This document shows, piece after piece, positions 6,665 to 64,000 of a stretch of 64,000 bases of DNA (position 1 is its first letter; the number at the start of each line of letters is the position of its first letter). This DNA is from Perkinsus chesapeaki (Eukaryota > Perkinsozoa > Perkinsida > Perkinsidae), in NCBI GenBank assembly GCA_013115145.1, contig JAAPAO010000007.1, positions 1 through 64,000 on the forward strand, in the 5' to 3' direction. The translations under genes were made by a program, and so were the position numbers. The notes under the pieces are model-generated. The model saw only the letters and a list, made by a program, of their open reading frames with translations. It searched no databases and was not told the DNA's origin.

Positions 6665-6800
6665 GTCCGATAGCCGACAGCAGAGGGGCTCACTGGAGGG
6701 TATAGACTACTCCGGCAGGCTGCTGGACGACTGGACCGCTGAAACTGTTGTGCTGTGATGTGGAACTCTGAGATGGCGGCGAACGCGGCGCAGCGGCCTG

Positions 6801-7899: not shown

Positions 7900-7904
7900 T
7901 TCCT

Positions 7905-33477: not shown

Positions 33478-34113
33478 TTATGTCCATAGCCGAGTCTCCT
33501 CGCGTTCTGTTGACTCCGATGTGACGTTTACGGTGCCATTATTGTACAGGGAATGCTCGATCAAATGGGCCTCGAATCTAGCTTGTAGATCAGCTAGACG
33601 CTGTTCGAGTTCACGTATTCGTGACTGAGGAGAATAAAGATAACATACTGAACCATTCGCACTTATTGATGCCAAGAAAGTACGCTCCAAAAACGAGTCC
33701 TACCTGTTGTTCCTGTACTGCACCAGTCAAAATCGCAATCAAGTCCTGATATAAGACGGAAAGGGTGTCTTGCCCTTCAGATCGATGGACCACTTCGGGC
33801 AATAACCGTTCCAGATCCTGAGAGTAAAACGTCAACAAATTGGGACCACAAGACAACGCGCAAGACCATTATGAGCTAGTACAAGTACTCACCTGTGCTA
33901 TAAAGCCAAATCGCCGCCGATCAGCCTCTGCGCCGGTTTGAGAGTCAAGTTTGAATGCGACCGGTCGTAGCTCCCTGAGCAGTTGCGAAGCCGGGCCATC
34001 ACGGTCAGCCTCCGCCTCTCCACTAGTTGGCTCGAGAGCAACAGAGAGCGGTGTAATATCTCGCTTCAAACGACGATCACTTGTTGTTAATGCAACGTCA
34101 GCTGTCCAGGTAC
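33478..34113 (-). other. S74 intramolecular chaperone/auto-protease domain plus coiled-coil tail
   Basis: Encoded by three exons. Predicted self-cleavage between Thr and the Ser of TTSDRRLK would release a 149-residue C-terminal fragment. The Ser-Lys dyad and the downstream GFIAQ and Y-Q-D-L-I-A-I-L elements are all in place, so an active domain is expected. The tail after the domain has heptad spacing (ELEQRLADLQARF), as in other S74 proteins, where it forms the trimeric helical bundle. Confidence 0.9.
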
Positions 34114-37100
34114 CTGAATGAACATTGAAGACATGTTGCCGATCCTAAGCGTTATGAAGCGGTTCTGCACGCCATCGAGCCAGAATTGCTACTCGCGGCT
34201 TACCGTGTAAGGTTCCCGTGCCTGCTTCAGTCGCTGATATGACTCGAGTAGAGCCAGCGTACAACTGGAAGCTACCCAAGCGGACGAAGCTTCGAACCGA
34301 AAGGCTGCTTCCGAATGTCGCGAAGTCGACGACAGACAGCTTGCTGCCTAGCCGCGCGAATGATCGCAACGACAGAGATGATCCAAAGCTAGCCACTTGT
34401 ATGACGGAGAGCTGATTAGCGTACGTATTGGTGAGCACGCTGAGGGCTGACCCCAGATGTGCCGAATCCCGTAGTGATAAGACGCTACCCAACCGTGCGA
34501 AGCTCCTCATTGAGACGGAGCTGCCGAAATTCGCTGCGTCGAGAACAGACAGGCTACCGCTAACTCTCGTGTACGATAGTGCCGAAAGGCTACTGCCTAG
34601 TTGGGCAACACCTGCAGCTGATACTTGATTCGCATAAGTAGCATCAGATATGGTCAACGTAGAACCAGCATCAATATGTCCCAGGACAGAGATACTGCTT
34701 CCCAAGCGAGCGAATGATCTTAGAGAGAGGGTGCTTCCGAAGCTGGCAAAGTTGATCAACGATGTAACACTTCCCAGTCGAGCGAATGATCGCAGAGATA
34801 TAGAAGACCCAAAGTTGACCAAGTCAAGAGCTGATACCTTGTTAACATAGGCGTAGTCTGTTGTACTCTGCACCGAGCCGCAAGTGAGCGAGCTCGTGAC
34901 TGACAGGCTGCTTCCTACCCTCGCGAGCGAACGCAAGGAGAGCGAGCTGCCGAAGGCCGTCATGTCATAGACAGAGAGTCTGCTGCCAAGGCGGCCGAAG
35001 CTTCTCAAAGAGAGTGCCGATGCGAAGTTTACCAAGTCCAGAATGGACACCTTATTCACATAAGCATAGGCCGTCGTGCTCTGTACTCCACCGAAGTGGG
35101 TCACACCTTGGACACTCAAACTGCTTCCGAGGCGAGAGAATGATCGAAGGGACAGCGAGCTAGCAAATGACGCAGTGTCATAAACTGACAAGATGCTGCC
35201 AAGACGGCCGAAGCTTCTTAATGAAAGGGACGAGCCCATCACGACTTGGTCGATAACTGATACCCTGTTAAGATACTGCGAGCCAATAACGCTCTGTGTA
35301 TCACCAAGGTTGATAAGATTAGCCACCGAAAGGCCACTACCCAGCCGACAGAAGCCTCTCAGAGATAAAGAGCTGCCAAGCACCGCTTGGTCAAATGAAG
35401 ACAATCTCGACCCCAAGCGCGAGAATGACCGGAGCGATAGGGAAGAGCCGAAATGTATTGCATCAAGTGCGGATACCTTATTGACGTAGGCATACCCTAC
35501 CGTACTCTGAACATCACCAAGGTGCATCACACCAGTTACAGAGAGACCGCTTCCCAAACGAGCAAGGCTCCTCATCGATAGCGAGCTACTAATAACAGTA
35601 TAGTCAAGAGCGGTCAACTTCGAACCAAGTCTTGCATATGACCTCAGCGACATAGAAGAGCCGAAGTTAGCTAAGTTGAGGACCGAGAACCGATTGACCA
35701 CAGTGTTATCAGTAACAGATAATGTGGAGCCAGCGTAAACCCCGCTAGCGGCCGAGACGCTACTGCCCAGACGAGCTGCACTGCGGAGAGATAGTGTACT
35801 TCCAAAAGTGACGAAGTCGACAATAGAAACTCGGCTTCCAAGCCTTCCGAAGGATCTCAGAGAGAGGCTCGAAGTGAAGCAGATCTTGTCAAGAACAGAG
35901 ACCTTATTGAGGTAAGCGTATCCCACTGTGCTCTGAGTAGAGCCTGCCGTGATACCATCGAAGACTGATATCGTGCTGCCGAGTCGCATGAAAGTTCTCA
36001 ATGAAAGAGAGCTTCCGAAGGATGTGCAGTCGAAGACTGATTGTTTGCTTCCTAGCCTTGCGAAGGATCGCAGTGACAAAGAAGAACCGAAAACACCTCC
36101 GTCAAGGATTGATAGCTTGTTAGCGAAGGCGACACCGATAGCGCTCGTTACTCCGCCCATGCGGGTAACACCGGCTATAGATATTGCGCTACCTAGCCTC
36201 GCTATTGCCCTCATGGAGACGCTACTACCGAAGGCCATGAAGTCGAGTACGGAGAGCCGACTGCCAAGCCGCCCGAAGGACCGGACAGACAGTGATGAGC
36301 CGAAGTTGACGGAGTCAAGAGCAGATAACTTATTAGCGAACTGACTGCCGAGAATACTTAGTGATGATCCGAGCCTTGTCTCCGACAGCACCGACACCCC
36401 ACTCCCGAGCCTCGATACACTACGGAGCGATAACGCGCTTCCGAACGATGCATAATCCGCTACGCTAAGCTTCGATGAGAGGCGGGCAAAGGATCGCAGC
36501 GATAGGGAGGAGCCGAAGTTGCCGAAGTTGAGAACAGAAATACGGTTCAGAAAGCTGTGGCCAATAAGACTGATTGGGCCACCGAAGTGGGATGTGCCTG
36601 TGACCGAAATGCCACTGCCCAGGCGAGCTTGACCTCGCAGAGACAGAGAGCTACCAAGCGCAGCATAGTCTAGTATGGACGACTTGCTTCCGAGACGAGC
36701 GAATGACCTCAGGGACAGCGAAGAACCAAAGTTAACATTGTCGTAGACACTTAGGGACTGGCCGTATTGAGCCGTGTTGCCGACGCTATGGGTAGAGCCA
36801 GTGACGACTGTAGTACCGAAGACGGATATAGTGCTGCCCAACCGAACGAAACTTCTGACCGATAGGCTGCTGCTCAGCTCCACGACATCGAGCGCTGATA
36901 GCTTGCTACCCAGCCTTGCAAACGAGCGTAGCGAGAGCGATGAGCCGAAGTTGGCAGTGTCAATGACGGATAGTCTATTGCTACAGAAGTTGCCGAGCAC
37001 ACTCTGAGTTCCTGTAATGCGAGCTACACCGGTCACCGAGATGCCGCTGCCAAGGCGAGCAATGCTCCTCAGCGATAAACTGCTACCCAAGCCAACGAAG

Positions 37101-40100
37101 TCCACCACGGAGAGCCGAGATCCAAGCCTTGCGAAGCTACGCAAAGAAAGCGAGGAACCGAAGGTAGCTATATCATTAACAGAAAGCTTAGTCACAAAGG
37201 CGTAGTCGGCAACGCTGTGATAAGATCCCAAGAATGCCGGAGAAGCGATGGAAACACCGCTGCCTTGCCGAGTGAAGCTGCGCAGAGACAGAGAGCTACC
37301 TAGTGCCACGTAATCGAGGCCGCTAAGCTTACTGCCCAGCCTAGCGAAAGACCTCAGAGATAACGATGAGGCGAATTGGCACTCCGATGAAACGGACAGG
37401 GTCGTCAACCTCGTTGTCGAGTATGCCCGAATCGTACTGCCGAATTGAGTCGTTGAGCCGACACTCAAGGAGCTTCCCAAACGAGCAAATGAGCGCAGAG
37501 ACAACGAGCTGCCAAAAGCACTGAAATCGGTGATGGAGGCTGTGCTACCGAGTCTCGCGAATGATCTTAATGACAACGATGAGCTGAAGTGGGCGGAGCC
37601 AGCAGCCGATACGGCGTTCAGGTAAGTAGCACTGCCTATACTCTGAATGGTACCAAAGCGAGTTACACCAGCAACAGATAGTGAGCTCCCGAGGCGCCCG
37701 AACGCTCTCAAAGAAAGGCTGCTGCCAAAGTTGCTCATGTCGAATATGCTGGCTGTTGACCCAAGCCTGGCGAATGAGCGCAGTGACATAGTCGAGCCGA
37801 AGTTAACGTGGTCCAGGGCAGAAACCTTGTTCACATAGGTGTAGTCGGTGATGCTTTGCACGCCGCCCATGTGGAGCGTACCAGCAACTGACAAGCCGCT
37901 ACCTAGCCTTGCGATGGCTCTTAGGGAGAGAGAGCTTCCGAAGCTAGCGGAATCCAGGGTCGAGAATGTAGCACCGACTCGCATGAAAGACAGAACGGAC
38001 GCTGAGCTACCGGCCCGGACGAGATCATTAGCACTGAGTTTTTGGAAGTACGCCGAGCCTTGTGTGCTAAGGTAGCTTCCAAGACAAACCTCACTGGCGA
38101 CCGAAGCAGTGCTGCCTAGCCGAGAGAAGCCCCTTAAAGATAGAGAGCTTCCCAGAGCAACGTAGTCAATACAACTTGCCGTGCTACCCAGTCGACTGAA
38201 GCTTCTCAGAGACAGGCTAGAGCCGAAACTAGTGTGGTCCAGAATCGACAACCTATTACCTGTCTTGACTCGTCCCAAAACCGACACGGAACTTGCAAGC
38301 CGGCCAAATGCCCTGAGGCTAAGACTGCTTCCAAAGACCGTGTAGTCTAGCACGCTGACTTTGCTAGCGAGTCTGGTGAAGCTCCTGATTGATAGAGAGC
38401 TACCCATATGTGCGAACTTCACCACCGAAAGGCTACCACCAGCTCGAGCAGCGCCCAGTAAGGAAGCGCACGATCCCAGACGCGCAAAGGAGCGTAACGA
38501 CAGCGTTGAGCCATATGATGTTTGCGCCAGAAGCGAGAGGCTCGAGCCGAGCTTGGTAGCCGCACCAACTGACAGACCTGACCCAAGGCGGGACATCGAT
38601 CTCATTGAGACAGAACTGCCGAGCACAGCGTAGTCCAAAACGCTGGTTGCCCCACCGAACCTAGCGAAGCTCCTCAGTGAGAGGCTCGAGCTGAAGCTTC
38701 CGCTCTGAACGATAGAAAGTGCACCACCAAATCTTGCGTTGGACACGGCGCTAATGGCTCCTCCAGCGTGAGCAGTGCCGACCAGACTCAGCGATGAGCC
38801 GAAGCGAGCGAAGGACCGGAGGGAGACCGAACTCGCCAGGATAGCCTGGTCGATCACAGATAGTTGGTAGAGACTGCCAAGCCTGACAAGACCAAGAACG
38901 GACACACCGCTCCCAATTCTTGCAAAAGACCTTAAGGAGAGTGAGCTGCCAAGTTCAGTCTGCTCAAGAACAGAAATAGCACCGGCAACTCTGGCGAACG
39001 ACCTCAAGGACAAGGATGATCCGAACGCTGTACAGTCGACGACGCTGGCACTACTGCCAAGGCGGGCGAAGCTCCTCAAGGATAGACTGCTACCGAAGTT
39101 GCCGTAGTCCACGAGGCTAACTTTGCCGGAGAGTAGAGCGAAGCTCCTGATAGACAGGGTGGAAGCAAGGTTTGCGAGATTAACTGCGCTGAGAGCACCA
39201 CCATAGTGAGCGGACCCGAGAGCTGACAAAGAACTGCCGAGCCTCGCTGCACTTCTGAGTGATAGACTGCTGCCAAAGGCAACGGCATCAAGAACACTGA
39301 GTGTAGAGCCCACGCGGAGGAAAGACAGCGCACTTGCCGCAGAGCCAACATGTGCTGCTGAGAGAACACTCACAGAGCTCCCTAATCTCGCAAATGATCG
39401 CAGAGATAAGGCCGACCCGAAAGAAGAAAGACCAAGAACTGATTGCCTCGCACCAAGGGTAGCGCTGCCAAGAAGGCTCAAGCTACTACCTAACCTCTGA
39501 GACGATCTGAGGCTTACTGAACTTCCACAAACAGCATAGTCGAGAGCGGATAGCTTGCTACCGAGGCGAGCGAAAGATCTCAGAGAAAGACTGCTGCCGA
39601 AAGAAGCACTGCCGAGGACGGAAGACGAAGAGCCAAGTAATGTATTTCCCAGGACTGAGATACCGCTTCCTAGTCTCGCGAAACCTCTCAGCGAGAGGGA
39701 ACTGCCGAGCTCCGCCACACCGACTACAGAGATAGCAAGTCGAGAGCCGAAGCGAGCAACCCCTTCAACCGAGAGAGAACTACCAACACGCACAGCTGCT
39801 CGTATAGAGAGGCTGCTTCCAAACGTTGTATAGTCCATAACCGTTAGTTTGCTGCCTAGCCTGGCGAAGCTTCTAAGGCTCAATGAGGATCCGAAGTGAC
39901 CCTGCTGGAGCACAGATAGTTCCGAACCATAACGGGCGGAACCGAGAGCGGAGAGACTAGAGCCAGCAGCCAGCGGACTGAAGACGGAGATAGACGAGCC
40001 CAGGCGAGCAAAGCTTCTGAACGACAGAGAGCTACCAATAACGGCATAACCTAGGACCGACATCTTGGAGCTGAGGCGAGCCAGCGAGCGGATCGAGAGA

Positions 40101-43100
40101 GAAGAACCGAAGTTCACCTCGCCGATTGCGCTCAAAGTGCTACCGAATCTCGCACAGCCGATGGCTGACACTCTCGAACCAATAGAGGCAGAGGCTACCG
40201 TAGACACGGAACTACCGATTCTGGCGAAATTCCTCAGAGAGAGCGAGCTGCCGAATTCTATCGCGTCAAGAACGGAAAGCTTGCTACCTAGCCTGGCGAA
40301 GCTCCTCAAGGAGAGCGACGACGCGAAGGCGGTGGAGGCTATAATAGAAAGCTTGTAGGCGGAACCAAGGCGGACCAAACCAGCAACTGAAAGGCCACTG
40401 CCGATGCGCTGGAATGATCTCAAGGAAAGCGAGCTGCCGACCACAGCATAGTTGAAGACCGAGGCCGAACTGCCGCAGCGCGCGAACGATCGCAATGAGA
40501 GGCTTGAGCCGAGGCTAGCCTGCTCGATAGCAGAGAGTCGACCACCAAACATGGCATTTCCAACTGCTGATACAGCCCCACCGATACGAGCAACGCTACG
40601 AAGAGACAGTGAGCTGCCGAGTGTGGCGAAATCCAGCACGGTGATATGGCCCGATAGACGAGCGAACGACCTCAGCGATAGAGACGACCCAAAGGAGGCA
40701 TGCGACACGGTAGACAGGGATGCCCCGGTGTTAAGGAGGCCAACCAGAGAAGCTGAGCTTCCCAGTCGTGCTACTGTGCGTAGGGATAACGAACTGCCGA
40801 TCTGGGTATAGCTCAGAGCACTCACCTTGTCCGACAGGCGAGCAAAGCTCCTCAGTGAGAGTGATGAACCAATGTTGACAACTCCGATAATTGATGCAGA
40901 ACCACCTATAGGAGCATTTCCGATAGCTGAGACTGAGCTACCCAGCCTAGCGAACGATCTCAGGGAAAGAGCTGAGCTGAAAGACGTTGCGTCAATGGCA
41001 GATACTGAGCTTGCTATACGGACCTTGGACACCACGGACAACGAGCTACCGAGACGAAGATAGGTCCTCAGCGAGAGAGAGCTACCGAGAGCGACCATAT
41101 CAAGAGCACTCGCGCGACTTCCCAGTCTGGCAAATGACCTCAGGGAAAGGCTGGAGCCAAAACTGGTTGAAGAAACCGCACTCAGTGTCGAGCCGACTCT
41201 GGCAAAGCCGCATGTGCTGAGCGTTGCACCCGAATAAATAGAGCTGACAATGCTGACAGCTGATCCAAACCGAGCAAAGCTCCTCATAGACACCGAGCTA
41301 CCAATCGTAACTTGGTCTATAACCGACAAGCCGTATACACTGCCTAGACGAGTGAGGCCTAGCACAGAGAGTCCACTTCCGAGCCGGGCAGAGTTACGCA
41401 GAGACAGAGAGCTGCCAAGAGTAGCATAGTCAACGATAGATGACTTGCTACCGAGACGAGCAAATGACCTCATAGACAAGCTGGATCCGAATGCCACTGC
41501 ATCCAGAGTAGACAGAGTGCCTCCAACCCGGCCGAAGGATAAAGCAGAAGCTGCGCTACCGAGAGTAACAGAGCCATAGGCTGAAAGACTGCTTCCAAGC
41601 CGAGCGAATGCGCGGAGCGAAAGCGAGCTTCCGAAAGCGCACTCACCAACCACAGACAATGCGCCGCCAACCTTTGCAGCAGAAAGAGCACTGATAGAGC
41701 TACCAAGGCGAGCTAATCCTCGCAGTGATAGAGAGGATGCCAGCAAAGTGCAATCCAATGAAGACACTGCTGCCGACATACGCGCAAATGATAGGGCTGA
41801 CAACTCTCCACCCATTCGAGTATCTCCAAGAAGACTTACACCACTACCGAGGCGGGCGAATGATCTTAGGGAGAGACTGGAGCCGAACGAACCCACCGCA
41901 AGCACTGATAAGGATGAAGCAAGTCGACAATCACCAGCAGCGCTAAGGGAGCTTCCAAAACGAGAAGATGCTCTCAAGCTGAGAGTGCTTCCTAGAGTTG
42001 TGAAATCTAGGACAGAGAGCTTGCCTCCCAATCTCGCAAACGATCGAAGACTCAGACTGCTGCCGAACTCACAATGATCCACCACGCTCATGGCGGAGCC
42101 AAAAACGGCGGTACCAACAGCCGAGATCGAACTGCCAAGACGAGCGAAAGACCTTAAAGACAGGCCGCTTGCAAGTTCCGCGGTATCGATCACACTTAGT
42201 GACTGTCTGGAACCGAAACGCGCCAGTCCGTCAACCGACAGGGTGCTACCAAGGCGGACGAAGGAGCGTATAGACAAGGAACTACCTATCATGGCAGTGT
42301 CATAGACGCTAAGCTTGCTGCCAAGACGAGAGAATGACCTCAAAGACAGTGATGAACCAAAGGTCGTTTGGCTTAATGTAGACAAGTCAGCGCCATAGCG
42401 TGTCGTGCTCGATGCCGACAGTACGCTGCCCAACCGGACTCCACTAGTAGTGGATAACGAGCTCCCGAGGCGTGCAAAGCTCGCCAATGACAAGGAGCTT
42501 CCAAACGAGGAGCGATCGAGGACTGAAACGTACCCCGACAACCGTGCAAAGCTACGTAGCGACAGGCTGGAACCGAAGTCGGCACAACCAACAGCACTCA
42601 TAGCCGATCCGAGATAGCCGCTTGAAGCAGTAGATAATGAGCTACCCAACCTTGCTGCTGATCTTAAGGACAAGCAGCTGCCAAAGGCCGCCATGTCGAC
42701 GACAGAAGCCTTGCCTCCGAGACGAGTGAAGGATCGAAGTGATAGAGATGAACCAAACAGTACACCTCCCAGGACCGAAGCAGTGCTGCCTAGCCGAGCT
42801 AGGGAGACGGCTGACAGTTGGCCACCAGTTCTCGCAGACCCGGCTACCGAAAGACTACTTCCAAGCCGAGCAAAGCTCCGTAGTGATAGTGAACTAGAGA
42901 AGTGAGAAGAGCTTATGACTGACAAGGAGTAGATAGAGCCAATGCGTGCAAGTCCTGATAGCGATGCCGAGCTACCAACACGGAAGAAGCTTCGGACGGA
43001 AAGGGAGCTGCCTAGCATCACGCTGTCGAGCACGCTCGCAGTACTTCCTAGCCGAGAGAATGAACGCAGAGACAAGCTGCTACCGAACTCTGCCTGTCCG

Positions 43101-46100
43101 AGAGCGCTGATGGACGAAGCTGCAGCAAGTTCTCCGACGAGAGATAAGGCACTGCCGAGCCGTGAGAATCCTCGTAGTGACAAAGAGCTACCCAAATCTG
43201 CGGCATCAACCACAGAGAGCTTAGATCCTAGTCGGCCGAAGCTGCGGAGCGACAGACTTGAGCCGAAGCTCGCCGCTCCAACTGCTGAGCATGTTGCACC
43301 AATACGAGCATCACTTAAAACGGATATAGATGAGCCACCGGTAAAGGTTGAGGCCACCGAGATAGCACTTCCAAGGCGAGCCACAGCTCGGAGTGATAAC
43401 GAGCTACCGAAATCAGCAAAGTCTAATACCGACAACTTGCTACTGAGCCGAGCGAAGCTCCTAAGGGATAGGCTCGACCCAAAGTGTACAGCACCAAGGG
43501 CACTGACAGCGTCACCAATTCGACTGCATCCCAAAGCCGAGAGGCTTGAGCCGCACTCAGTCGCGAGCCGAACAGAAAGGCTGCTGCCAAGACGAGCGAA
43601 GGACCTCAGAGAAAGAGAACTTCCTAAGTGGCCCTCTGCAATAAGGGAGAGTTTATAAACCGAGCCAATGCGTGCAAGGCCTAAAACCGATAATCCGCTT
43701 CCGAGGCGACCGCCTGCCCTGAGTGATAGTGAGCTGCCGCACTGGGCGAAGTCAAGAATACTGATCTTGCTTCCCAGTCTGGCAAATGACCTCAGAGAGA
43801 GTGATGATCCGAAGGTTGCTGAGTCTGCGGTAGATAAAGTTGAGCTGAACCTTGCAACGCCAAGAGCAGAGAGCGCTGAAGAAGCATAAATCACGCCTGT
43901 CACTGATAAGCTGCTGCCGAGGCGAGCAAAAGATCGGAGCGATAGGCTTGAAGCAAAGTTTACGGAGTCGGCAATGGACGTCACTGCCATGGATCCGCAG
44001 CGCACGTATCCCAGAACTGAGAGGCTGCTGCCTAACCTGGCATGCCCTCGCAAAGAGAGTGAGCTACCCAAAGCGATCTTATCCAGCACTGACAGTTTGC
44101 TACCAAGTCGAGCAAAAGACCTTAGAGATAGTGAGGAAGCGAATGATGCCTGCTCCATAACCGATATATGAGAACCGACCCTCGCAGAGCTCAAAGTAGA
44201 GAAAGCGGCTCCAGCGGTCACCGTGGATGCAACTGACAAGCTGCTGGCTAATCGAGCGAAAGATCTTATAGACAAGGAGCTTCCGAACGATCCGCTGTCG
44301 ATGACTGAAATCGAGCTAGAAGCCCGTAATCCGCCTATTAGAGATACGCTGCTTCCCAGTCGCACCAACCCACGAAGAGACAGGCTTGAGCCGAGGTTGG
44401 CAAAGTCCAGTGCGGAAACCGAAAGACCAAGACGAGCTCTACTGATGGTACTCAGGGAAGAGGAGCCAGTCATTGCGCCAGTAACGGAGATACCACTGCC
44501 AAGCCTAGCAAAGCTTCGCAGTGATAGGCTGCTCCCGAAAGCTGCGCTACCAAGACTCGACAATGAGCCGGCAACGCGAGCGAACGAGCCGAGAGACAGG
44601 CTGGAGCCAAGATGAATCCAGCTTACAATAGACATTGAGCCGCCGAGTCTACCATTACCTACGGCTGAGACGGAACTGCCTAATCGTGCAAAGGAGCGCA
44701 AGGAGAGACCGCTCCCGAACGATGTTAGACCAATTGCGGATAGAGCCGAAGAGAGCTTCACATTTGCGAGAGCACTGATGCCGCTGCCTAGCCTGGCAAA
44801 CTGCCGCAAAGAAAGGCTACTACCAAACGACGCTTCCTCAAGCACCGATAGCTTACCACTCATACGCGCGAAAGACCTGCAACTCAGACTGCTGCCCAAT
44901 GTGACATAGTCCACAGTGGAGAGCGCGCTGGAGATACGAACACTTGCGAGTGAGCTAATGGTGGATCCAAGCCGAGCAAAGCTGCGGCATGAGATAGAGC
45001 TGCCAAAAGACGCTAACCCTATCGTAGATAGTTTGTAAACCGATCCCACTCTTGCAAGCCCGAGCACGGATACAGAGCTTCCTAGACGGCATGCTGACCT
45101 CAAGGATAGCGAGCTGCCCAGGTTAACGTAGTCGATCGCTGAGCACTTGCTACCGAGACGGGCAAAGGATCGGAGAGACAATGACGAACCGAAAGCAGCC
45201 TCACCAAGGACTGACAGAGCCTCACTCAGGCGCGTCGCAGACTGTACGCTCAGGGTGCTCTGCATTCTCACTGCTCCGAGAACCGACACCGAGCTTCCAA
45301 CGCGAGCGAACGATCGCAATGACAAGGCAGAGGCGAAGCTCGCACCTTCGATAACCGACAGTCTATAGAGAGATCCAACACGGGCGAGTCCTAGCATAGA
45401 CACCGAGCTTCCAAGTCTAGCAGCAGATCGCAGAGACAGGGAGGAACCGAACGAAACTTGGCTTAAGGCCGAAAGCTTGCTACCTAATCGCGCGAAACTT
45501 CTTAGTGACATGGAGCTACCAATAGAGGCTTCAGAGAGGAGACTGAGTTTGCTACCCAGGCGACTGTAAGATCGCAATGACATCGAGCTGCCGAAGTTCG
45601 CAGCGCAAATGACCGAGACACTTGAACCTGCATATGCTGCACCAACTGCGGAGAAGCTGCTACCAAGGCGACCGAACGACCTTAAAGAGAGAGCACTCCC
45701 TAGTGTAGTGAAGTCCAGCACTGTAGTATAGCTGCCAAGGCGGGAGAAGCTCCTCAAAGAGAGAGACGAGCCAAAAATGGCTTGACCGAGCACGCTGGTA
45801 GATTCACCCACTCGAGCGGATGCCAGGGCAGAAATAGCGGAGCCCACCTGTGCAACCGAGGCGATAGACAAGCTGCTTCCAAGCCGACTAAATGATCTCA
45901 AAGAGAGTGAACTTCCAAAGGCTGCTGAGTCCAATACGGAAATCTTTCCGCTGAGCCTAGAGAAGCTCCGGAGCGAAAGAGACGAACCAAATGCAACCTG
46001 ACCAAGTGCGCTCAAGGATGAGCTGAGATCTGCCGCGGCCAACGCTGAAAGCGTCGACCCGATTGTCGTAGACCCTGTAAGGCTGACAGTGCTCCCCAGT

Positions 46101-52100: not shown

Positions 52101-55100
52101 CCAGAGAATTTACTGAATCCAAGGGCAGACACGGTGTCGCCGGTAGTGATACTTGACCTCACGCTTAGAGCAGAGCCGAGACGCGATGCACTTCGAAGAG
52201 ACAACGAGCTGCTTAGAAGGACAGAGTCAAATGACGACGTCAGTCCTCCAAGTCTGGCGAATGAACGAAGGGAGAGCGATGAGCCGAAAGCTGAAGATCC
52301 CAAAATTGAGACCCTGTCGCCGAGAGTGGCCGCAGAGTATACCGACATCACGCTGCCAATACGGGAGAACCCTCTCAATGACAGCGAAGAGCCTAAAGCG
52401 CTCATTCCCAAGGCAGACAATGAAGACCCCCAAAGAGATGATCCATAGGCCGACACTGCGCTGCCAAACCGTGCAGTGACACGGATCGATATGGAACTAC
52501 CGAGAGCAACACAGTCGAGTATAGACGCCTTGCCTGAAAGTCTTGCAAATGATCGGAGCGATAGGGTAGAACCGAACTCAGTCTGGGCAAGGACCGACAA
52601 AGAGTCGCCGAAGGATGCTGATCCTAGAACAGAAATCGAAGAAGCACCGACGGTAGATCCTGTTACAGATAGAGAACTGCCGAGCCTGGCAAAGGACCTC
52701 AGCGACAAGCCAGAAGCAAGATTGCAGGTGTCTAGCAGCGAAATACCGTACACAGAACCGAACCTTGCTAATCCCGTTACAGACAGGGAGCTCCCAAGGC
52801 GAGCAACACCCCGCAAGCTTAGCGATGAAGCGAGTGCAGCTGCATCCATCACACTCAGCTTGCTGCCCATACGAGCGAACGACCTCAAGGATAGAGAAGA
52901 CCCGAAGTGGGTGTGGCTCAAGACCGTTACGGCTCCGCTTACTGCCGCTTGAGAAAGGATCGATACTGAGCTGCCTAAGCGCACCAATGCCCGAACGGAA
53001 AGGCTAGATCCAAGACTCGCGAAGTCAGTCATGCTTAGCTTACTGCCCAGACGTGAGAATGATCTAAGCGAGAGCGAAGAACCAAAGGATGTACAATCGG
53101 CTACAGAGCATGACGAAGCCATGCGGGCCAGACCGAGGGCTGACAGCGAACCCATGACTCGAGCATCAGACTTCACCGAAATTCCGCTGCCGAGTCGGGC
53201 TATTGTACGGAGAGACAAGCTACTGCCTAACGACACGTAGTCGAGCACAGACAATGTGCCAGAGAGCCTTGCAAATGACCGCAGGGAGAGAGATGAGCCA
53301 AACGACACCTGCTCGAGAACAGACTGTTGGCCACCGATGCGCGCTAGGTTACGAATAGAGAGGGACGAGCCGACGTTAGCGAACGACGCCACAGATATCG
53401 ATGACGCTGCTCTAGCCATACCCAAGATAGACATGGAACTTCCGAGCCTGGCCATGCACCGCAATGACAGGGAACTAGCGAAGGAAACCGACTCGGTCAC
53501 TGAGAGCTTACTTCCGAACCGAGCAAATGACCGAAGTGATAACGAGGAACCTACCTCTGATGTACCGACAACAGAGCAGGCTGATCCCAAGCTTGCGGCT
53601 CCATAGGTAGACAAGGAAGATCCGAGCCGAGCGAAGCTTCGCAAGGAAAGAGAACTGGCGAAGTTCGTAGCAGCCAAGACAGAGATTCTATATAGCGATG
53701 CGAGCCTTGTGAGACCAGCAACTGATAGACCGCTTCCAAGCCTTGCTGCACCGCGGAGAGATAGTTGGCTGCCGAGGAGGACGTAATCAACAGTAGACAG
53801 AGAGCTGCCACAGCGAGTGAAGCTACGAACGGAACAGCAAGAGCCTAGACTACTGAAGTCTAGCGCTGATATATGCCCACCGATTCGGGTTCGGTCCAGT
53901 ATCGAGACGGACGACCCAATCCTACAGCGCCCAAGGACGGATGTGTAGGAGCCCACGCGAGCAGCACATCTCAAACTAAGGGACGAGCCAAGATTGGCAT
54001 AGTCCAGAGCAGTGAGCTTCGAACCAAGGCGGGCAAAGGATCTTAGCGACAAGGTGGAACCAAACTCAGCCGCTTCAAGTGCAGAGACAGCCGAAGCCAA
54101 CCTTGTGGCGCCTAATATCGAGAGGTCGGAGCCTAGTCTTGCGGAGCCTCGAAGAGACAAGCTGCTGCCAAAGTGCACATAGTCTAGAACACTCGCCTTG
54201 CTCGAAAGACGAGCAAAGCTTCTCAACGATAATGAGCTGCCCAATGCGAAGCTGTCTAGCAGCGAGCACGAGCTGCCCAGTCTAGCGCTGCTCATGAGCG
54301 AAGCTGACGAGCCTAACCGTGTTACCGCTCTCAATGACAGAGACGATCCGAGAGATGTCGAGTCGATGACACTAAGGTGATAGACAGAACCAACTCGAGC
54401 CAAGCCTAGGATCGATACACCACTTCCACAGCGAATGAAGTTTCTGACGGAGAGAGCGCTGCCAATCTGTATGAAGTCTAGGACAGATGCCTTACTGCCG
54501 AACCGACCGAAGGATCGTACTGACAAGGAGGAGCTGAAGTGGGCGAAGCTGAGGGCCGAGATGGAGGCTCCTAGCCTGGCGAGCTCCTGGATTGAGCACG
54601 CGCTACCTATAACACCTCCACCAACCGTTGAGATACTGCTACCAAGACGAGCAAAGTTGCGCAAGGAGAGAGAACTACCGAAAGCAGCAGCGTCAAGAAC
54701 AGACACTTTGCCGCAAATACGAGCAAAGCTCCTCAGTGATAGGGTACTACCGAATTCGGCCTTACCAAGAACCGTGAGTGCGTCGCCGAACTTCGCTACC
54801 GAAATGACTGACAATCCGGAGCTGACCCTTACCGTTTCCTTGATAGATATGGCGCTTCCTAACCTAGCGAAGGATCGTAGACTGAGGGAACTCGCTAGTG
54901 CCGCTTGATCCGTCAGCGACACTTTGCTTCCGAGTCTTGAGAAGGACCGCAGTGAGAGGGAAGAGCCGAACGAAGTCGAACCGAATGCGGACAAGACATC
55001 ACCGAATCTGGCGAAGCTCTGGGAAGAGACGGAGCTGCCGAAGTGTGCAGGAGCGACCACAGAGATACCGCTGCCAAGCCGAGCAAAGCTGTGCAAAGAC

Positions 55101-58100
55101 AACGACGACCCAAGATGAGTGTAACCCACAACCGAAAGCTCGAGAATAGAGCCGAACCGTAGGACGCCTGTGACACTCATTGCGGAGCCTATCCGGGCAA
55201 CAGCTCGAACACTCAAAGTAGAACCTAGTTGCACGTAGTCCATGACGCTTATATATGAGCCCATTCTTCCGAATGACCGCAATGATAGAGAGGAGCCGAG
55301 ATAGACTTCCTGTACTGTCGATACCATCTCTCCGATACGAGCTGTTGAGAAAACGCTGAGCGAGCTACCAAGCCGAGAGAAGGAGCGCATCGATAGAGTA
55401 GAGCCCAGATGAGCGAAGTCAAGGACTGTTGTTCGACTGCCGAGACGAGCAAAGCTCCGTAGAGACAGAGAGCTGCTAAAGGTGGCACGCTGAAGAACCG
55501 ATACACAGGAGCCAGCTCGCGCGAAGCTTCGCAGGGAGAGTGAGCTACCGAAGTGCGCAGTGTCGACGATGCTCACAGAAGCGCCGAGGCGAACAGTGCT
55601 TACTGCTGATAGACCGCTACCAAGGCGGAGAGCAGTCCTCAGGGACAGCGATGAGCCCAACTGCACGTAGTCGATGATGGAAGCCGCGGAACCAAGCAAG
55701 GCGAACGACCGAATAGAAAGCGAAGATCCGAGTTGTGTGGCGTCCACAACCGATAGTGTTGAGGCAAATCTCACACCATTAGTAACGGAGAGAGCGCCCT
55801 TGATCTTAGTCACCCCAACCACAGACACGCTGCTGCCAAACCTGGCCATAGCGCGGAGAGACATGGATGAGCCGATAACAGTGTAGTCCAGGAAGGATGC
55901 CGCGCCGGAAAGTCTCGAGAAAGACCGAATAGAGATGGAGCTGCCGAATGTGGCCGATGCAATGACAGACACTTTATAGACAGAACCTATGCGGGCCAGT
56001 CCAGTAACCGAGAGGCCTGAGCCAAGACGGGCCATAGCGCGAAGGGACAAGGAAGAGCCGAGTCCAGTGCATCCGAGAGTGGATAGAGCATCAGCCAAAT
56101 GGGTTTGTCCTACCACAGAGCAAGAGCTGCCCAGTCTTGTGAAGGATCGGAGCGACAAAGAGCTGCTGAAAGCAACACTATCAGACACAGAAAGGACACC
56201 GCCCAGTCTCGAGAAAGAACGGAGTGATAGAGATGAGCCAAAGTTCGCTGCACCCAGGGCCGACACCGCATCACCGAGGCGCAGTTGGCCAATGACGGAC
56301 GCCGTTGAAGAGAGCCGCGCTACACTTGCCACTGATATCCCGCTACCCAGGCGAGCCATGGACCTCACCGAAAGCGAGCTGCTGAAGGTGGTAGAGTCTA
56401 TCACAGAGAGCTTATACACCGAACCTACTCTAGCGAGGCCTGTAACCGAGAGGCCTGAGCCAAGCCGAGCTACACTTCTCAGTGACAACGAGCTACTAAT
56501 AAGCACGAAGTCTAACACAGACTGTGAGCTTCCGAGCCTCGCGAAGGACCGGAGTGACAAGGAGGAGCCGAAAGTAGCGAAGCTTGTGACAGAGGTCTTG
56601 CTGCCCATCCGGGAGAACGCTCGCAGCGACAGACTGCTGCCGAGGTTCACATAGTCCAGGATAGAACTCTTCGACCCGAGCCTTGCGAAAGAGCGTAGGG
56701 AAAGAGAGCTACCGAAGTGAGCTGCACCAACAACAGAGACTGCGGCACCGACATTCGCTGAGGCCAACGATGAGACAGCGCTGCCGAGTCGAGCTGTACT
56801 TCGAAGGGACAATGAACTACCGAGCGTAGTGAAATCGAGGATAGTAGCTTTACTGCCAAGTCTCGCAAAGCTGCGGAGTGACAGCGAAGATCCCACAGTG
56901 GTCGCGCTGATGGCAGATAAGCTGGAGCCAATGCTAGCAGCCCCGTACGCAGATACCGAGGATCCCAGCCGCAGGAAAGTCCGAAGGGACAGTGAGCTAG
57001 CAAGCGTCGTGTAGTCGGTAGCGGACACCTTGCTGCCTAGTCTAACGAATGACCGTAAAGATAGCGATGATCCGAACAGGCAAGCTCCGACTGTGCTGAC
57101 CAGCGAGCCACACGAAGCTGTGGCAAAAGCAGAGACTGATGACCCGAGACGAGTGAAGGCTCGTAGGGACAGACCTGACCCGAAACTGACGGAGTCTAGA
57201 GCCGACAAAGATTCTCCAACCCTAGCCAAGCCAAGTACTGAAGCAGAGCTACCGCCTCTCGCCACACCACGCAATGAAAGCGAGCTTCCCAAGGTTGTGT
57301 AGTCCAAGATCGACAGCTTCGAACCCAAACGAGCAAAGCTTCGAAGAGAAAGGGACGAGCCGAATTGAACAAGTCCAAGCACCGACTGAGCAGAACCAAG
57401 CCTTGCGTAGGACAAGGTAGACAAAGAGTCTGATAGTACTGTCTGTGAGACAACCGATATACTGCTGCCTAGCCTGGCACAAGCTCTCAATGAGAGCGAT
57501 GAGGCCAGTGCAACGTTGTCAATAACGGAGAGCTTGTAACAGGATCCCACCCTCAGCAATCCTAATACGGAGGCGCCACTGCCCAATCGAGAAACGGATC
57601 GGAGTGAGAGAGAGCTGCCCAGTTCAGCTTCGCTGAGCACGCTGAGCTTCGAGCCAAGTCTGGCGAAAGATCTGACCGATAGAGAGGAGCCGAAATGTGC
57701 CGCATCGAGAGCTGTCAGCGATTTGCAGTAAGTTCGACCGAGAACAGAAAGTGATGATGATGCTGTAACTGGACCGACAACACTGATTGAGCTACCAAGG
57801 CGGGCAAAGCTCCTCAGCGAGAGGGCACTACCGAGGTTTACCCCATCGAGGACAGATAGCCTTCCAGCAATCCTTTGGCTTGAACGGAGAGACAAAGTGC
57901 TAGCAAAGTTGACATAGTCTACAATGCTGAGCCTGCTGCCAAACCTAGCGAAGCTTCTCAGAGATAGGGAGCTACCAAAGCTGGACTGTCCGAGTACAGA
58001 AACTCGGGATCCCACTACGGCCGCTGTCAGAGATGAAATTGAACTACCAAGTCTTGCCAAGCCACGAAGCGAAAGGGAGCTGGCCAGAGCGACCTCAGAT

Positions 58101-61100
58101 AGCACAGATGTCTTGCTTCCGCAACGGGCAAAAGAACGCAGAGATAACGACGAGGCCAGTGCCGAGCTAGCAATGACGGACAGCTTGTAGCACGAGCCGC
58201 ACCGCACCAACCCGGTAACAGAGAGACCACTTCCGAGCCTAGCAACATTGCGCAGCGACAAAGAGCTGCCGAGGTGGCTGAAGTCAAGAATAGAGCTCGA
58301 GGAGCCCAGTCTGGCAAACGACCTCAATGACAGTGATGATCCGAAATCAACGACGTCAAGGACCGACAGAGCAGATCCGAAGGTTGAAGAGCCTAGTACG
58401 GACATGCTTGAGCCGCTACGGACGAATGTTCGCACAGAAAGGGAACTGCCCAGTTGGGTAAAGTCCACCACTGACAGCTTCGAGCCAAGCCGAGCGAAGC
58501 TGCGCAGTGAGAGCGACGATCCGAAATCAGCTTGTCCCAGCACCGATATCGAGCTGCTTGCTGTAAGACCTCCCAAAATGGAGATGGCGCTGCCGAAGCG
58601 GGCGAAACCTCGTAATGAGATAGAACTTCCAACGGTGACGTAACCCAGCACCGATATCTTATACACGGAGCCCAAGCGCTGTAAGCCAGCAACAGATAAG
58701 CTGCTACCGAACCGGACAGCAGCTCTCACAGAAAGACTCGACCCAAAGGTAGCATAGTCTAGAACCGACAACTTGCTGCTGCATCGAGCGAAGGAGCGCA
58801 GGGAAAGCGAAGAGCCAAAGTTGGCAAAGCTTAGGGCAGATACCGAAGCGCCTAGCCTAGCCAATCCGAGGGCACTCGCTTGGCTACCGATTCTAACGCA
58901 TTCGGCAACCGAGGCCCTACTGCTGAGCCTGGCAAAGCTGCGGAGGCTCAATGAGCTGCCTATATCGACTGCATCTAGTATGCTGGCCTTACTGCCAAGC
59001 CTTGCGAAAGAGCGCAACGATAAAGACGAGCCATAGTGTAGGGCGCCTAATACAGATAGTCGATCACCAAAGTCTGCGAGCCCCAGAGAACTCATGCTCC
59101 CGGCGAGCTTAAACTCAGATGTCACGGAGAGTACACTACCAAGGCGAGCAAATGAGCGCATCGAAAGAGAGCTGCCGAAGTTGACACTGTCTAGGATACT
59201 GACATCTCCTGCGATTCGGGCAAAGGCGCGTAGAGACAACGAGGATGCGAGGCCAGTAGAAGCAATCACCGACAAGCTGTATACTGATCCGATGCGAGCG
59301 AGGCCCGTGACAGATAAGCCACTACCAAATCGACCAACGCTCCTGAGTGACAAGCTGCTGCCAAGAGCCACCTCGCTGAATACAGAAAGCTTGCTGCCTA
59401 GACGGCCGAGGGAGCGGAGAGATAGAGAGCTGCCGAAGCTGCTAGCGCCCAGCACTGTACAGCTGCTCCCGACGTTGATCGCACATAAAGCGGAGCACGC
59501 CGATCCTAGTCTAGAATATGCTCGTATGGAAATAGAACTGCCGAGAGAGCTGTAGTCCAAGGTGCTCATTTTGCTGCTGAAACGAGCAAACGACCTCACC
59601 GAAAGAGACGAACCAAGACTCACGGAGTCCAGTGACGACAGAGTATCATGCAGGTGCGTGCGACCATATACCGAAACCGTGCTGCCCAGCCTGGCAAATG
59701 AACGAAGAGACAGCCCGCTGGCGAACGAGGCTCCGGCGATTACTGATAGCTGGTAAACTGAGCCGACCCGAGCTAGACTAGCGACAGAGATGCCAGAACC
59801 AAGTCGAGCCATTCCACGAATTGAGAGAGTGCTACCCAGAGTCACTGCATCAAAGCTGCTGAGCTTACCGCCAAAGCGACCGAAAGAGCGCAGTGACAAG
59901 GACGATCCAAAGTGTGCCTGGCCAACTGTTGATAGGCTTGAGCCGAAGTTACCATGGCCAAGCATGCTAACCGAACTGCCCATCAAAGCGGAGCTCGTGA
60001 CAGAAATGGTGCTGCCTAATCTGGAGAATGCTCGTAATGTTAGAGAGCTTCCAAATGATGCTCCAGCAATAACCGATAGTTTATACACCGAACCTACGCG
60101 AGCCAAGCCAACTGCGGATATGCCGCTACCCAATCGAGCAAAGGTCCGGAGCGATAGACTGGACCCGAGGCTAGCGGCATCAAGGAGCGTCATCTTGCTC
60201 GCAAGACGAGCGAACGACCTGAGCGAGAGGGACGAACCGAAGCCGGCTGATCCAATAACAGAGAGCTGCGACCCGACCTGACAGCCGCCAGTAGCAGATA
60301 TGGCGCTGCCGATACGGATGAGAGATCTGACTGACAGCGAGCTGCCGAAGGCAACATAATCACAGACAGACGCAGCTGCACCCATTCTCGCAAAGGATCG
60401 CAGCGAGATCGAGGAGCCGAATATAGCATAGTCTAGGACGGAGCACTTGGAACCTGCTCGAGCGAAAGACCTCAGGGACAAGGAGCTACCAAGGGCAGTG
60501 CTGCCGATAACCGAGATTACTCCGCCCACACCAGCACGACCGACCGCGGAGATACTGCTGCCCAATCGAGCAACGTTGCGAAGAGAGAGTGAGCTACCAA
60601 GAGTAACGTAGTCGAGAATCGACGCGTCCGAGCCACACCTTGCGAACGACCGAAGTGATAGCGAGGAACCCATACTAGTTGCTGCAATAATAGATAGCTT
60701 ATACACAGACCCAACTCGAGCAATGCCGAAGACCGAGCAACCGCTACCTAATCGACTTGCTCCGCGAAGGGATAACGTGCTGCCCAAGACTGCATAGTCT
60801 AGGACGCTGTACTTGCTACCCAGCCGGGCAAAGGACCTCAAAGATAGCGAGGAGCCGAATGAAGTAACTCCGACTGCACTGAGTGAGCTACCGACCCGTG
60901 TAGATCCATATATAGATGCAGAGCTTCCAAACCTTGAGACTGCCCTCAAGGATAGCGAACTCCCGAGGTTGATATAGTCTAGAACAGTCAGCTTGCTACC
61001 ACAGCGCGCGAAGGAACGAATAGATACCGAGCTTGCAAGGTTAGCAAATTCAAGGCTGCTCACTGCTCCGGCGAACCGCGCAACAGAGGCAACGCTCATG

Positions 61101-64000
61101 GCGCTACCACAGCGTGCAACTGCCCTGATGGAAAGGGAGCTGCTGAGGGTAGTGCACGCTATAACCGAGAGCTTGTAAACAGAGCCAACTCGTGCTAGAC
61201 CAAGAACGGAAATACCACTTCCTAACCGAGACGCTCCTCTGAGCGACAGTGTACTTCCAAGAGTGCTGAAGTCTAGTAGCGTCATCTTGGACCCTAAGCG
61301 GGCGAAAGTACGCAGTGAGACAGAAGACGCTAGCGTGCTGCCAGCAAGCACCGATATGGCACCTGCTACCCTAACGAAGGATGCCACCGACACGCTGCTA
61401 CCAAACCGGGAGAGACTCCTCACAGACAGAGCACTTCCAAAGTTTATCAAGTCCAAAGCAGACAGCTTCGATCCGAGACGGGCATAACTTCTCAGTGATA
61501 AGCTGCTCCCGAGGCTTGCCATGCCTAGCACGGAGGCTGCACTAGAAAGCCGAGCAAAGTTGCGCAATGAGAGAGAGCTTCCCAAATGGGTAGATCCTAT
61601 TGCCGAGAGGGCAGCGCCAAGGCGGCATAAACCAACTGCAGAAATGCCACTTCCCATTCTGACGCAGGACCGGATCGACATAGCGCTACCGAAGGCGACG
61701 CAGTCCAAGACGGACATCTTCCCGGAGAGCCTAGCAGCCGAACGGATCGAGAGTGAAGACCCGAAGGAGGCATCAGCGATAACCGAGAGCTTGTAGAGCG
61801 AACCGATCCGCGTTAGGCCATGAACCGATACACCGCTACCAAACCTAGCTACGCCACGTAGGGACAGTGAGCTGCCAAGTAGAGCATGTTCGAGGACAGT
61901 TGCGGAGCTTCCTAGACGCGTGAAAGATCGCAGCGAAAGACTCGATCCGAAGTGAGCTTGCCCAACTGTGGAGAGACAGGCTCCCAAATTGGAGGAACTC
62001 TTCGCCGACAGGGTGCTGCCGAATCTGGCTACCGATCTGCAAGAAAGACTGGAACCTAGAGAAAGGTTATCCAACACGCTCAGCTTAGATGCCAGCCTGG
62101 CGAATGACCTAAGTGAGATCGTAGAACCCAGGCTGCTCAATGATACGACAGAAAGGCTGGAGCCGGTACGCAGCAGGCCAAGTAACGAGAGGTCACAGCC
62201 CATGCGAGTGAACTGCCGAACTGATAGAGAACTGCCCAAGTGAGTGAAGCCGATGGTGGATATCTTATAGATTGACCCTATCCTGGCGAGACCAAGGACA
62301 GAAACACCACTACCTAGTCGAGTCATCGATCTTACAGACAGGCTGCTACCCAGGACGGCAAAGTCGACCAGAGTCAAGTCGCTTCCTAAGCGTGCGAAAG
62401 ACCTCAGCGAAAGGGCGGAGCCGAAGTGGACGCTATCAAAGACTGATACTTGGCTACCAAAGCTTGCGGCGGAAAAAGCGGACATGACGCTACCAAACCT
62501 TGCCGCCGACCTCAAAGAAAGCGAGCTTGCCAGGCCAACAAAATCGAAGACCGAATAGCAGCTGCCGAACCTAGCATAGCTCCGCACAGATAGGCTGCTG
62601 CCAAGGTGAACTTCATCAAGTACAGAGAGAGCCGCTCCAACGCGAGACTGGGAGATAATCGACAGTCCGCTGCCGAGCCTGATAAAGCTCCTCAAAGACA
62701 AGCTGCTACCGATGGCAGTAGAATCGAGAACAGTTAGCGACGAACTGAATCGCGCGAAAGACCTCAGCGAGAGCGAGGACCCGAAGCTGCTTTGACCGAC
62801 CAGCGACATGGATGACCCCATGTAGCAGAACGATCGGAGAGAGAGCGTGCTACCGAATTCTGCCGAATCTAGTATAGACGTCTTGCTGCCGAGCCTAGCA
62901 AACGACCTCAAAGAGAGGCTCGAACCGAAGAGGCCTCCAGCGATTACAGACAATTTATAAACCGAGCCGATTCGGGCAAGACCAGTTACAGATAAGCCAC
63001 TCCCGAAGCGAGCAACCGCGTGTAGTGACAACGAGCTCCCAAGTCCACAAGCGTCCAATACAGTCAAGCTCGCACCGAGTTGAGTGGAAGATAGAGCAGA
63101 GAGTGTGCTGCCAAATCGACTGAATGACCTCAGAGACAGCGAACTGGCTAGCTGAGAGGATGCAATCACCGACAGCTTGTAAACGGAGCCAACGCGTGCG
63201 AGGCCGTAAGCACTGATACCGCTACCGAATCGAGCTACGCTCCTCAGAGACAAGGAGCTGCCTAAGCCCACTGTGGCGAGGACAGTTAGGCTGGAGCCTA
63301 GTCGAGTCGAACCAAGAACAGACTGGGAACTACCAAACCTCATGAAGCTCCTGAGAGAGAGCGAGCTTCCAAGCAAAGCACCATCCAAGGCAGACAGACC
63401 GCTACCGAGGAAGCCACTGAGTGCTGCAGAGAGCGAGCTACCAGCTCTACAGAGGGACCGTACTGATAGAGAGCTACCAAGCTGCGCGTACCCAATGACC
63501 GAAGCCTTGGAGCCTAGGCGAGCAAAGGATCGGAGAGACAGAGAAGACCCGAATGCGGTACCGTCCAGAACGCTAGTGGACGAGCCCAGACGTGCAGCTG
63601 ATGCCGCGGAAAGGGTGCTTCCAAAACGCACGAGGGAACGCAAGGACAGCGAGCTGCCACAGGTTACGTGGTCTAGAACGGTAAGAGACGAACCTACTCT
63701 TGCAAGACCAACGGTAGACACCGCCGATCCGAGTCGAGCTATAGCCCGCAAGGACAAGGAGCTCCCGAGAGTGGTGAAGTCAAGAACGGATAGCTTGGAG
63801 CCAAACCTTGCGAGTGACCGAAGCGATAACGATGACCCACAAGTAGTTGCATCCAGAACGCTCATGGTGCCAGACAAGACGCTATCGCCGAACACCGATA
63901 CTGAGCTTCCTAGGCGGGCAAACGAGCGCAAAGATAAAGTGCTACCGAAATTGGTCATGCCAATCACGGAGAGTTCCGCGAGTGACTCAACTCGGAGCAC
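33478..64000 (-). CDS. giant repeat fibre-like protein with C-terminal S74 auto-processing chaperone domain (5' end beyond window)
   Basis: Exons in transcript order: from beyond 64000 to 34204, then 34113-33893, 33817-33704, 33624-33478; introns of 90, 75 and 79 nt. The visible part is 10,092 residues. About 9,900 residues are 12-residue repeats, consensus near L-G-S-S-L-S-L-R-S-F-A-R alternating with L-G-S-K-L-S-V-L-D-Y-V-A, occasionally lengthened to 14 (GSVYKLSVIAS). After a short linker the C-terminus matches the S74 intramolecular chaperone family: SDRRLKRDI (Ser codon 34081-34079, Lys codon 34066-34064), LRPVAFKL, RRFGFIAQDLERLLPEVV, SVLYQDLIAILTGAVQEQ, then a coiled coil (RIRELEQRLADLQARFEAHL). 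S74 proteins such as phage tail spikes and MYRF trimerise and cut themselves just before the Ser. A trimeric beta-helical fibre is the natural inference. No signal peptide can be seen because the N-terminus is missing. Confidence 0.95.
34205..64000 (-). repeat. protein-level 12-residue repeat array (about 830 units in window)
   Basis: Unit 12 residues, G-S-x-[LVI]-S core, often paired into 24 residues (SSLSLRSFARLG + SKLSVLDYVALG). Codons for the same peptide differ from unit to unit, so there is little DNA-level tandem repetition. Variant units of 14 residues (…GSVYKLSVIAS…) recur at irregular intervals. Long antisense frames on the + strand are a by-product of this composition. Confidence 0.93.
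34400..38070 (-). repeat. 213-bp (71-residue) higher-order repeat, about 18 copies
   Basis: In the C-terminal part the 12-mers are organised as 24 + 24 + 23 residues. Every third block carries a shortened variant ending like YVNKVSALDLVNFG (other forms: YLNRVSVIDQVVMG, FANKLSILDGGVFG). The marker recurs at near-constant 213-214-bp steps, for example near 34836, 35048, 35261, 35476, 35690 and 35903. This regularity is absent from the rest of the array. Confidence 0.8.

Follow-up and report, generated by a model that had tools for sequence, protein, structure and literature searches.

The assembly of Peptidase S74 domain proteins is established: the chains meet at their three C-termini, a trimeric shaft is folded, and the S74 domain is afterward released by its own cleavage. 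In phage S74 fibers, such as endosialidase NF (endoNF) and tail fiber 6f45, the S74 domain is C-terminal and carries a Ser-Lys pair followed by a helix. In eukaryotes, S74 is found in MYRF (also written MyRF), with a Ser-x4-Lys spacing and a beta stalk that precedes the domain (PMC8326128). Two further kinds of S74 fiber have been described: the mosaic adhesive trimeric fibers of Bdellovibrio, non-phage proteins with a signal peptide, an N-terminal beta-rich domain and an S74 domain with an SDxxxK motif (PMC10769870), and the modular, eukaryote-associated fibers of polinton-like viruses (PMC12220804). Here we analyzed the first 64,000 bases (the window) of a Perkinsus chesapeaki contig, C664, which hold the 3' part of a giant minus-strand gene whose predicted product is a long repeat shaft with an S74 domain at its end. 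We consider it reasonably probable that this gene encodes a secreted giant self-trimerizing and self-trimmed fiber, most likely shaft material of flagellar hairs.

The gene compares as follows with the systems above. Like the phage fibers it has a C-terminal S74 domain with a Ser-Lys pair and then a helix, and 6f45 was matched at E 3.6e-10; unlike them it has introns and a predicted signal peptide, a segment of its shaft was without a phage match, and phage fibers are far shorter than its product. With MYRF it shares the Ser-Lys spacing and the stalk before S74, whereas the window product is a predicted secreted rod with no recognized DNA-binding domain. The Bdellovibrio fibers differ in being bacterial, about 1,000 residues long and equipped with varied adhesive tips (PMC10769870), and those of polinton-like viruses reach up to 3.9 thousand residues, carry laminin or collagen modules and are encoded by viral elements of 14-40 kb (PMC12220804). 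In the open-licence literature, including that on giant proteins, no account was found of a 66 kb coding exon or of a chain exceeding 22,000 residues that carries a self-trimming chaperone of the phage type. S74 fibers as a kind are already known; what is new is a eukaryotic member, probably secreted, that combines a shaft of this type with a 66-kb exon.

A giant gene ending in an S74 domain

The window corresponds to C664:1-64000 of a contig of 166,478 bases in total, and the frame was extended by use of the adjoining stretches. On the minus strand, window positions 34148-64000 were found to form an open frame of 9,951 codons, stop-free and still open at the window edge. The giant repeat frame claimed in the initial annotation is real and more than twice as long as its visible part, running over C664:34148-100156, a span of 22,003 stop-free codons. 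The giant exon (C664:34204-100141, 65,938 bases), when joined to three small 3' exons and with the upstream exons excluded, encodes 22,139 residues before the stop; the predicted mass of the 22,003-codon frame alone is ~2.24 MDa. As a chance control, 20 base shuffles of the same DNA were found to give a longest open stretch of 307 codons (frame 1), and in the unshuffled DNA none of the five remaining frames was open for more than 407 codons. Although 4,546 of the 22,003 codons are one change away from a stop, none is a stop. On the plus strand of the giant exon, antisense frames of up to 407 codons are present, which look like a by-product of the repeats and, without other evidence, not like genes.

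Assignment of the C-terminus to S74, likewise proposed from the initial reading, was borne out by a Pfam hidden Markov model search in which the spliced C-terminus matched PF13884 (Peptidase_S74) over the full profile (1-58 of 58) with 52.9 bits, the cut-off being 22; the single S74 exon reached 41 bits (profile 1-47 of 58). In the S-D-R-R-L-K motif of both the window gene and a paralogue on contig C12, Ser and Lys are five residues apart, as are S587 and K592 in MyRF or S911 and K916 in endoNF (PMC8326128). The Ser codon lies at 34081-34079, where it had originally been placed. Of 295 relatives found, the best 120 were listed, and 118 of these keep the catalytic Ser, the two exceptions being P0002, with Thr at an apparently wrong exon junction, and P0109, which was not scored. 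The Ser-Lys pair, whose mutation had been named as a sign against the initial annotation, was found intact in the paralogue and in two of three Perkinsus olseni S74 fragments (P0003 and P0011; P0002 has Thr). A profile search of the PDB returned two tail fibers at E 0.01, 6f45 (3.6e-10) and 8jov (7e-06); the MyRF and endoNF structures had no sequence match in the same search. The S74 domain is C-terminal with a helix after it, modeled at residues 302-355 in relative P0004 (block pLDDT 74-97). Based on these sequence matches, the window protein is a member of the Peptidase S74 / ICA domain proteins.

All three 3' introns have GT-AG borders, and the spliced frame is open up to a TAA at 33480-33478. 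Junctions FGFIAQ^DLERLL and EQQ^SRIREL are identically joined in the P. olseni protein model P0002, and the first junction, GTLH^GTW, is uninterrupted in relatives (e.g., 'GTLHGVW' in P0004). The three C-terminal splice junctions, predicted from their borders, agree in this manner with the protein models of relatives. Coordinates are listed in Table 1.

Table 1. Features of the 3' part of the giant gene in window coordinates.
Feature	Position	Strand	Content or basis
Giant exon, part within the window	34204..64000	-	Shaft of 12-residue glycine-serine repeats; open beyond the window edge
S74-start exon with S-D-R-R-L-K and FGFIAQ	33893..34113	-	Pfam PF13884, own-genome search match at 33893-34081, splice borders
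Exon DLERLLPEVV...EQQ, second part of S74	33704..33817	-	Spliced Pfam match; junctions of P. olseni model
Last exon, C-terminal heptad-like helix SRIRELEQRLADLQARF... and stop codon	33478..33624	-	Splice model; end of relative P0004 modeled as helix
Ser codon, predicted self-cleavage site (cut expected just before Ser)	34079..34081	-	Mechanism by homology to MyRF S587/K592 (PMC8326128)

The repeat shaft and its relatives

The shaft was found to consist of about 1,800 12-mers of the approximate form G-S-x-L-S-[VL]-x-x-x-[AT]-R-L, in three alternating kinds designated R (LRSFARL), Y (VYGxARL) and D (VLDFxxL). These follow a strict R-Y-D order in the N-terminal zone, with a period of 36 residues, in runs of 1,615 and 2,719 residues separated by a single slip; this strictly regular zone covers the first ~4,300 residues and ends near residue 4,345. 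The frequency of slips per 1,000 residues was 4 at residues 4,000-6,000, 10-11 at 6,000-8,000 and 12-28 beyond. Two-residue shifts numbered 65 in the C664 gene and 31 in the C12 gene, and the narrow pattern GSVYKLSV, a typical longer unit, was detected 34 and 8 times, respectively; a regular spacing of these two-residue-longer units was sought, and the spacing proved irregular. Residue identity was 2.6 times the composition expectation at lag 12 and 3.0 times at lag 36 (4.0 for the latter within the N-terminal zone), with no enrichment at lag 6. Hydropathy in the N-terminal zone repeats at 6, 12, 18 and, most strongly, 36 residues, with correlations of 0.40 for lag 6 and 0.72 for lag 36. The 22,003 residues of the shaft frame include 13 prolines and 25% Ser, carry a net charge of +1,333 and have only 14 N-glycosylation triplets. 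A beta fold is predicted for the shaft from the few prolines, the high Ser content and the hydropathy period. In the one shaft segment scanned with the full table, no Pfam family was over its cut-off.

At the DNA level, Tandem Repeats Finder reported no repeat in the part of the frame within the window, and no 28-base word occurs twice in the whole 66 kb frame. Since the DNA has no long repeat, a repeat-driven assembly error is very unlikely. The 36-residue units of the regular zone agree at 48-51% of their residues, and their fourfold sites agree at 31-39%, for neighbors or units 20 apart, with 28% expected from composition. Conserved serines are encoded by both TCN and AGY, and synonymous sites are near saturation even between adjacent units. 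Because residues agree while fourfold sites are nearly random, the units appear to be old, without sign of recent copying, and kept by selection at the protein level. Serine codon choice in the giant exon (C664:34204-100141) was also found to vary with position: Ser after Gly (positions 1 and 13) favors AGC, and strand Ser (positions 4, 16 and 28) favors TCN.

A second giant gene is located on contig C12, with 13,728 open codons and an S74 domain at C12:7214-7396. It has the first two 3' introns in common with the window gene and lacks the third (after EQQ). Its N-terminus agrees with that of P. olseni FOZ60_008328 (P0185) at 94% over one stretch, and P. olseni fragments match the C-terminus of the window gene at 72-87%; by these protein matches the window falls within or close to Perkinsus. 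An S74 search of the own genome gave two places from three candidates, and the shaft matches listed for this genome were all on C664 and C12. Relatives were compiled in two lists (best 120 of 295 and best 120 of 230); among the matches listed, those named outside Perkinsus with both shaft and S74 were from Alexandrium monilatum, A. catenella, Pyrodinium bahamense and Kryptoperidinium foliaceum, and most other listed relatives were without an organism name. Some are transcripts, judging by their names. These dinoflagellate 'Peptidase S74 domain-containing proteins' have the same 12-mer shaft and S74 domain as the window protein and are true relatives; they differ in that those listed are fragments no longer than about 1,050 residues, from searches limited to that length. 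A search of the protein database for giant relatives of ~5,500-17,000 residues yielded none among 454 candidates at E 0.001, where low-complexity filters may hide some. Judged by homology, the system extends beyond a single gene and a single organism, as there is a second giant gene and there are dinoflagellate relatives.

Several relatives, including P0125, P0138, P0142 and P0193, keep the 12-mer phase and show Leu/Phe/Pro for Ser, Asp/Glu for Gly and His/Cys/Gln for Arg. These substitutions are almost purely transition changes, and many such relatives derive from long contigs. When position 4 was scored in the 136 of 223 relatives that were long enough, the 31 under a 0.6 cut-off had S at 0.38, L at 0.25, P at 0.17, F at 0.14 and T plus A at 0.03, and the other 105 had S at 0.86. 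The deviant relative P0193 has an S74 domain over the Pfam cut-off, and the transcript-derived P0195 and P0221 are likewise under 0.6, so that transcript-derived relatives are not all canonical. As a lead only, the cause could be that the dinoflagellate copies undergo RNA editing or a mutation process confined to transitions; editing in Symbiodinium is described for 1.6% of nuclear genes (PMC5357065). Three relatives (P0016, P0124 and P0169) are auto-annotated as hexapeptide-type lipid A acyltransferases, perhaps through a hexapeptide-like pattern.

Probable secretion and possible use of the fiber

When the contig was followed toward the N-terminus, a likely signal peptide was found in upstream exons. 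The likely start codon lies outside the window at one of three in-frame ATGs (C664:102,162 to 102,198). Near 102.2 kb, two exons with a 46-base intron between them read MILWLLILPLQ^LVQG followed by WVLVGRRGDITLLG, and more short open stretches carrying these repeats were found upstream of the giant exon; this N-terminus is a manual exon model, only partly resolved between 102.2 kb and the giant exon. The signal peptide of the C664 gene was read as MILWLLILPLQLVQG with WVLVGRRGD as the start of the mature chain, and that of the C12 gene as MYYIILLLQLLPSTNA with WVLVGRDG. P. olseni P0185 starts with MYYLIIQVALLLLQPARA and WVLVGRDG and continues with the same repeats. Judged by eye and by hydropathy, both giant genes likely encode a signal peptide, the prediction being backed by the P. 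olseni model for C12 and by the manual exons for C664. The protein is probably secreted: the predicted signal peptide supports an extracellular or secretory-pathway location, where the initial annotation had envisaged an extracellular or organellar fiber. The layout of P0185, the P. olseni orthologue of the C12 paralogue, is a signal peptide, a ~200-residue region without a Pfam match and then repeats, and no Pfam family was over cut-off in its N-terminal 402 residues. The MYRF layout, in which S74 lies between a DNA-binding domain and a membrane anchor, was not found in this orthologue.

The gene structure, the repeats, their selection at the protein level and S74 membership are seen in the sequence; the mode of action that we propose is the following. 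The chain would begin with a signal peptide and a small N-terminal domain, continue with about 1,800 12-residue beta repeats and end in the S74 intramolecular chaperone and a C-terminal helix. It would enter the endoplasmic reticulum (ER), which is continuous with the perinuclear space. Three C-termini would pair by way of the helix and the S74 domain, the shafts would zip from this end into one beta-structured rod, and S74 would cut itself off before the Ser of SDRRLK, so that the remaining trimeric rod has a mass of roughly 6.7 MDa and a length of 0.3-0.9 µm. Folding from the C-terminal end would be an attractive way to set three very long chains in register. Most likely, the rod would then build the shafts of flagellar hairs (mastigonemes), both on Perkinsus zoospores and in dinoflagellates. 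Tubular mastigonemes are reported in the perinuclear space (PMC10624901), and the anterior flagellum of P. olseni zoospores bears a one-sided row of hairs given as 1.3 +/- 2.9 µm long as printed and 0.3 µm apart (PMC7398310). The fiber is a good candidate for hair material because a fiber of about hair scale, predicted to be secreted by way of the ER, occurs in Perkinsus and dinoflagellates; we put forward this function tentatively.

Several points weigh against the reading of a self-trimerizing hair fiber. The case for hairs draws only on distribution, routing and size, and the hair length as printed (PMC7398310) carries an error that exceeds its mean and is longer than the one-molecule estimate. 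AlphaFold2, when given the shaft alone as a single chain with 33 aligned segments (starts at least 150 residues apart), returned a beta-rich model with a mean pLDDT of 46.8; in relative P0004 the shaft was unfolded (pLDDT 34-45; whole model 54.8, pTM 0.33). It is also quite possible that the same secreted self-trimerizing fiber has another use, as a cell-surface coat or adhesin, wall material or extrusome content. The evidence for secretion and S74 fits such uses equally, Bdellovibrio S74 fibers are surface adhesins (PMC10769870), and trichocysts are also described from dinoflagellates and Perkinsus relatives (PMC3377698). Set against these uses are the monotonous shaft, with no ligand-binding domain recognized by Pfam in the N-terminal 402 residues of P0185 or in one shaft segment, and the open-licence literature on S74 or endosialidase with Perkinsus or dinoflagellates, where no account of such proteins was found.

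Shaft fold, origin and implications

The length of the fiber depends on its fold. With textbook values for the rise, it would be 0.30 µm with one 36-residue turn per 4.8 angstrom, 0.59 µm as a left-handed hexapeptide helix and 0.89 µm as an intertwined triple helix. The initial estimate applied to the visible part; it is too low for the whole gene, which has more than twice that length, and had to be raised. A doubtful yet serious alternative to the intertwined triple beta-helix is that the shaft is a one-chain left-handed hexapeptide beta-helix, S74 merely joining the ends. The three PDB profile matches of the shaft, all weak, were hexapeptide acyltransferases of the left-handed type (E 0.03 to 0.96), 2 of 33 segments touched Pfam Hexapep (best E 0.0073), hydropathy has a period of 6, and 12-mers in an 18-residue turn would likewise yield a period of 36; LRR_5 was touched by 3 of the 33 segments (best 7.9e-05). 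By contrast, the 33 aligned segments gave no confident AlphaFold2 build of such a helix, residue identity is not enriched at lag 6, and the triple-helix stalk of MyRF is also described with hexapeptide repeats (PMC8326128).

That the gene belongs to an integrated phage-like or polinton-like virus, and not to the host, is very improbable. S74 fibers are common in phages, the C-terminal query matching 107 of 50,697 phage records, and occur in polinton-like viruses as noted above. However, of 15 neighboring frames (S74 exon aside) 7 have a Pfam name, all cellular, and 8 no match; the 3' end has three introns, the 66 kb exon alone exceeds the 14-40 kb given for polinton-like viruses (PMC12220804), and a 204-residue shaft segment had no match in the same phage records. 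One pattern scan each of viral and prokaryotic contigs left 18 and 220 candidate stretches, respectively, and tblastn confirmed none of them; these scans rely on short exact peptides and would miss distant relatives. With its introns and cellular neighbors, the gene does not fall into the class of phage tail spikes or fibers, and its S74 domain may have been acquired from a virus long ago. A non-functional or misassembled repeat array, open by chance, is scarcely credible: low-complexity repeats are classic assembly trouble and the gene is known here from DNA alone, but no 28-base word recurs, residues agree beside nearly random fourfold sites, thousands of codons one change from a stop are intact, and both the C12 paralogue and P. 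olseni relatives exist.

The named neighbors comprise two phosphofructokinases (PFK), two 3'-5' exonucleases, one fusion protein with pyruvate oxidoreductase and, from contig C12, one methyltransferase and one subtilase. The PFK-like frames lie in tandem at window 794-1690 and 3513-4301 (168 and 171 bits), each with a long antisense frame, and adjoining frames at 17208-19112 and 19625-21574 have a C-terminal DNA_pol_A_exo1 3'-5' exonuclease domain. Near the 5' end of the giant gene, C664:106146-111401 (L007:2146-7401) encodes a pyruvate oxidoreductase fused to a flavodoxin/FAD/NAD reductase in one frame of 1,752 codons. At the very start of the contig (window 1-73) is a 31-base tandem repeat of 2.4 exact copies.

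To our knowledge, the protein of dinoflagellate and perkinsid flagellar hairs is not known, and the giant self-trimming fiber proposed here would be a concrete candidate for it. A bolder version, which we regard as unlikely, is that dinozoan hairs are single giant self-trimming trimers with their length written in the gene: one molecule would form one hair shaft, the strict 36-residue zone and the looser zones would be its stiff and flexible parts, and the two paralogues would provide two lengths. The fiber also poses the question of how a cell folds three identical 2 MDa chains in register, for which the C-terminal S74 domain could start the zip. If the bolder version is true, an assembly domain of phage type would have become a molecular ruler for the surface of a eukaryotic organelle.

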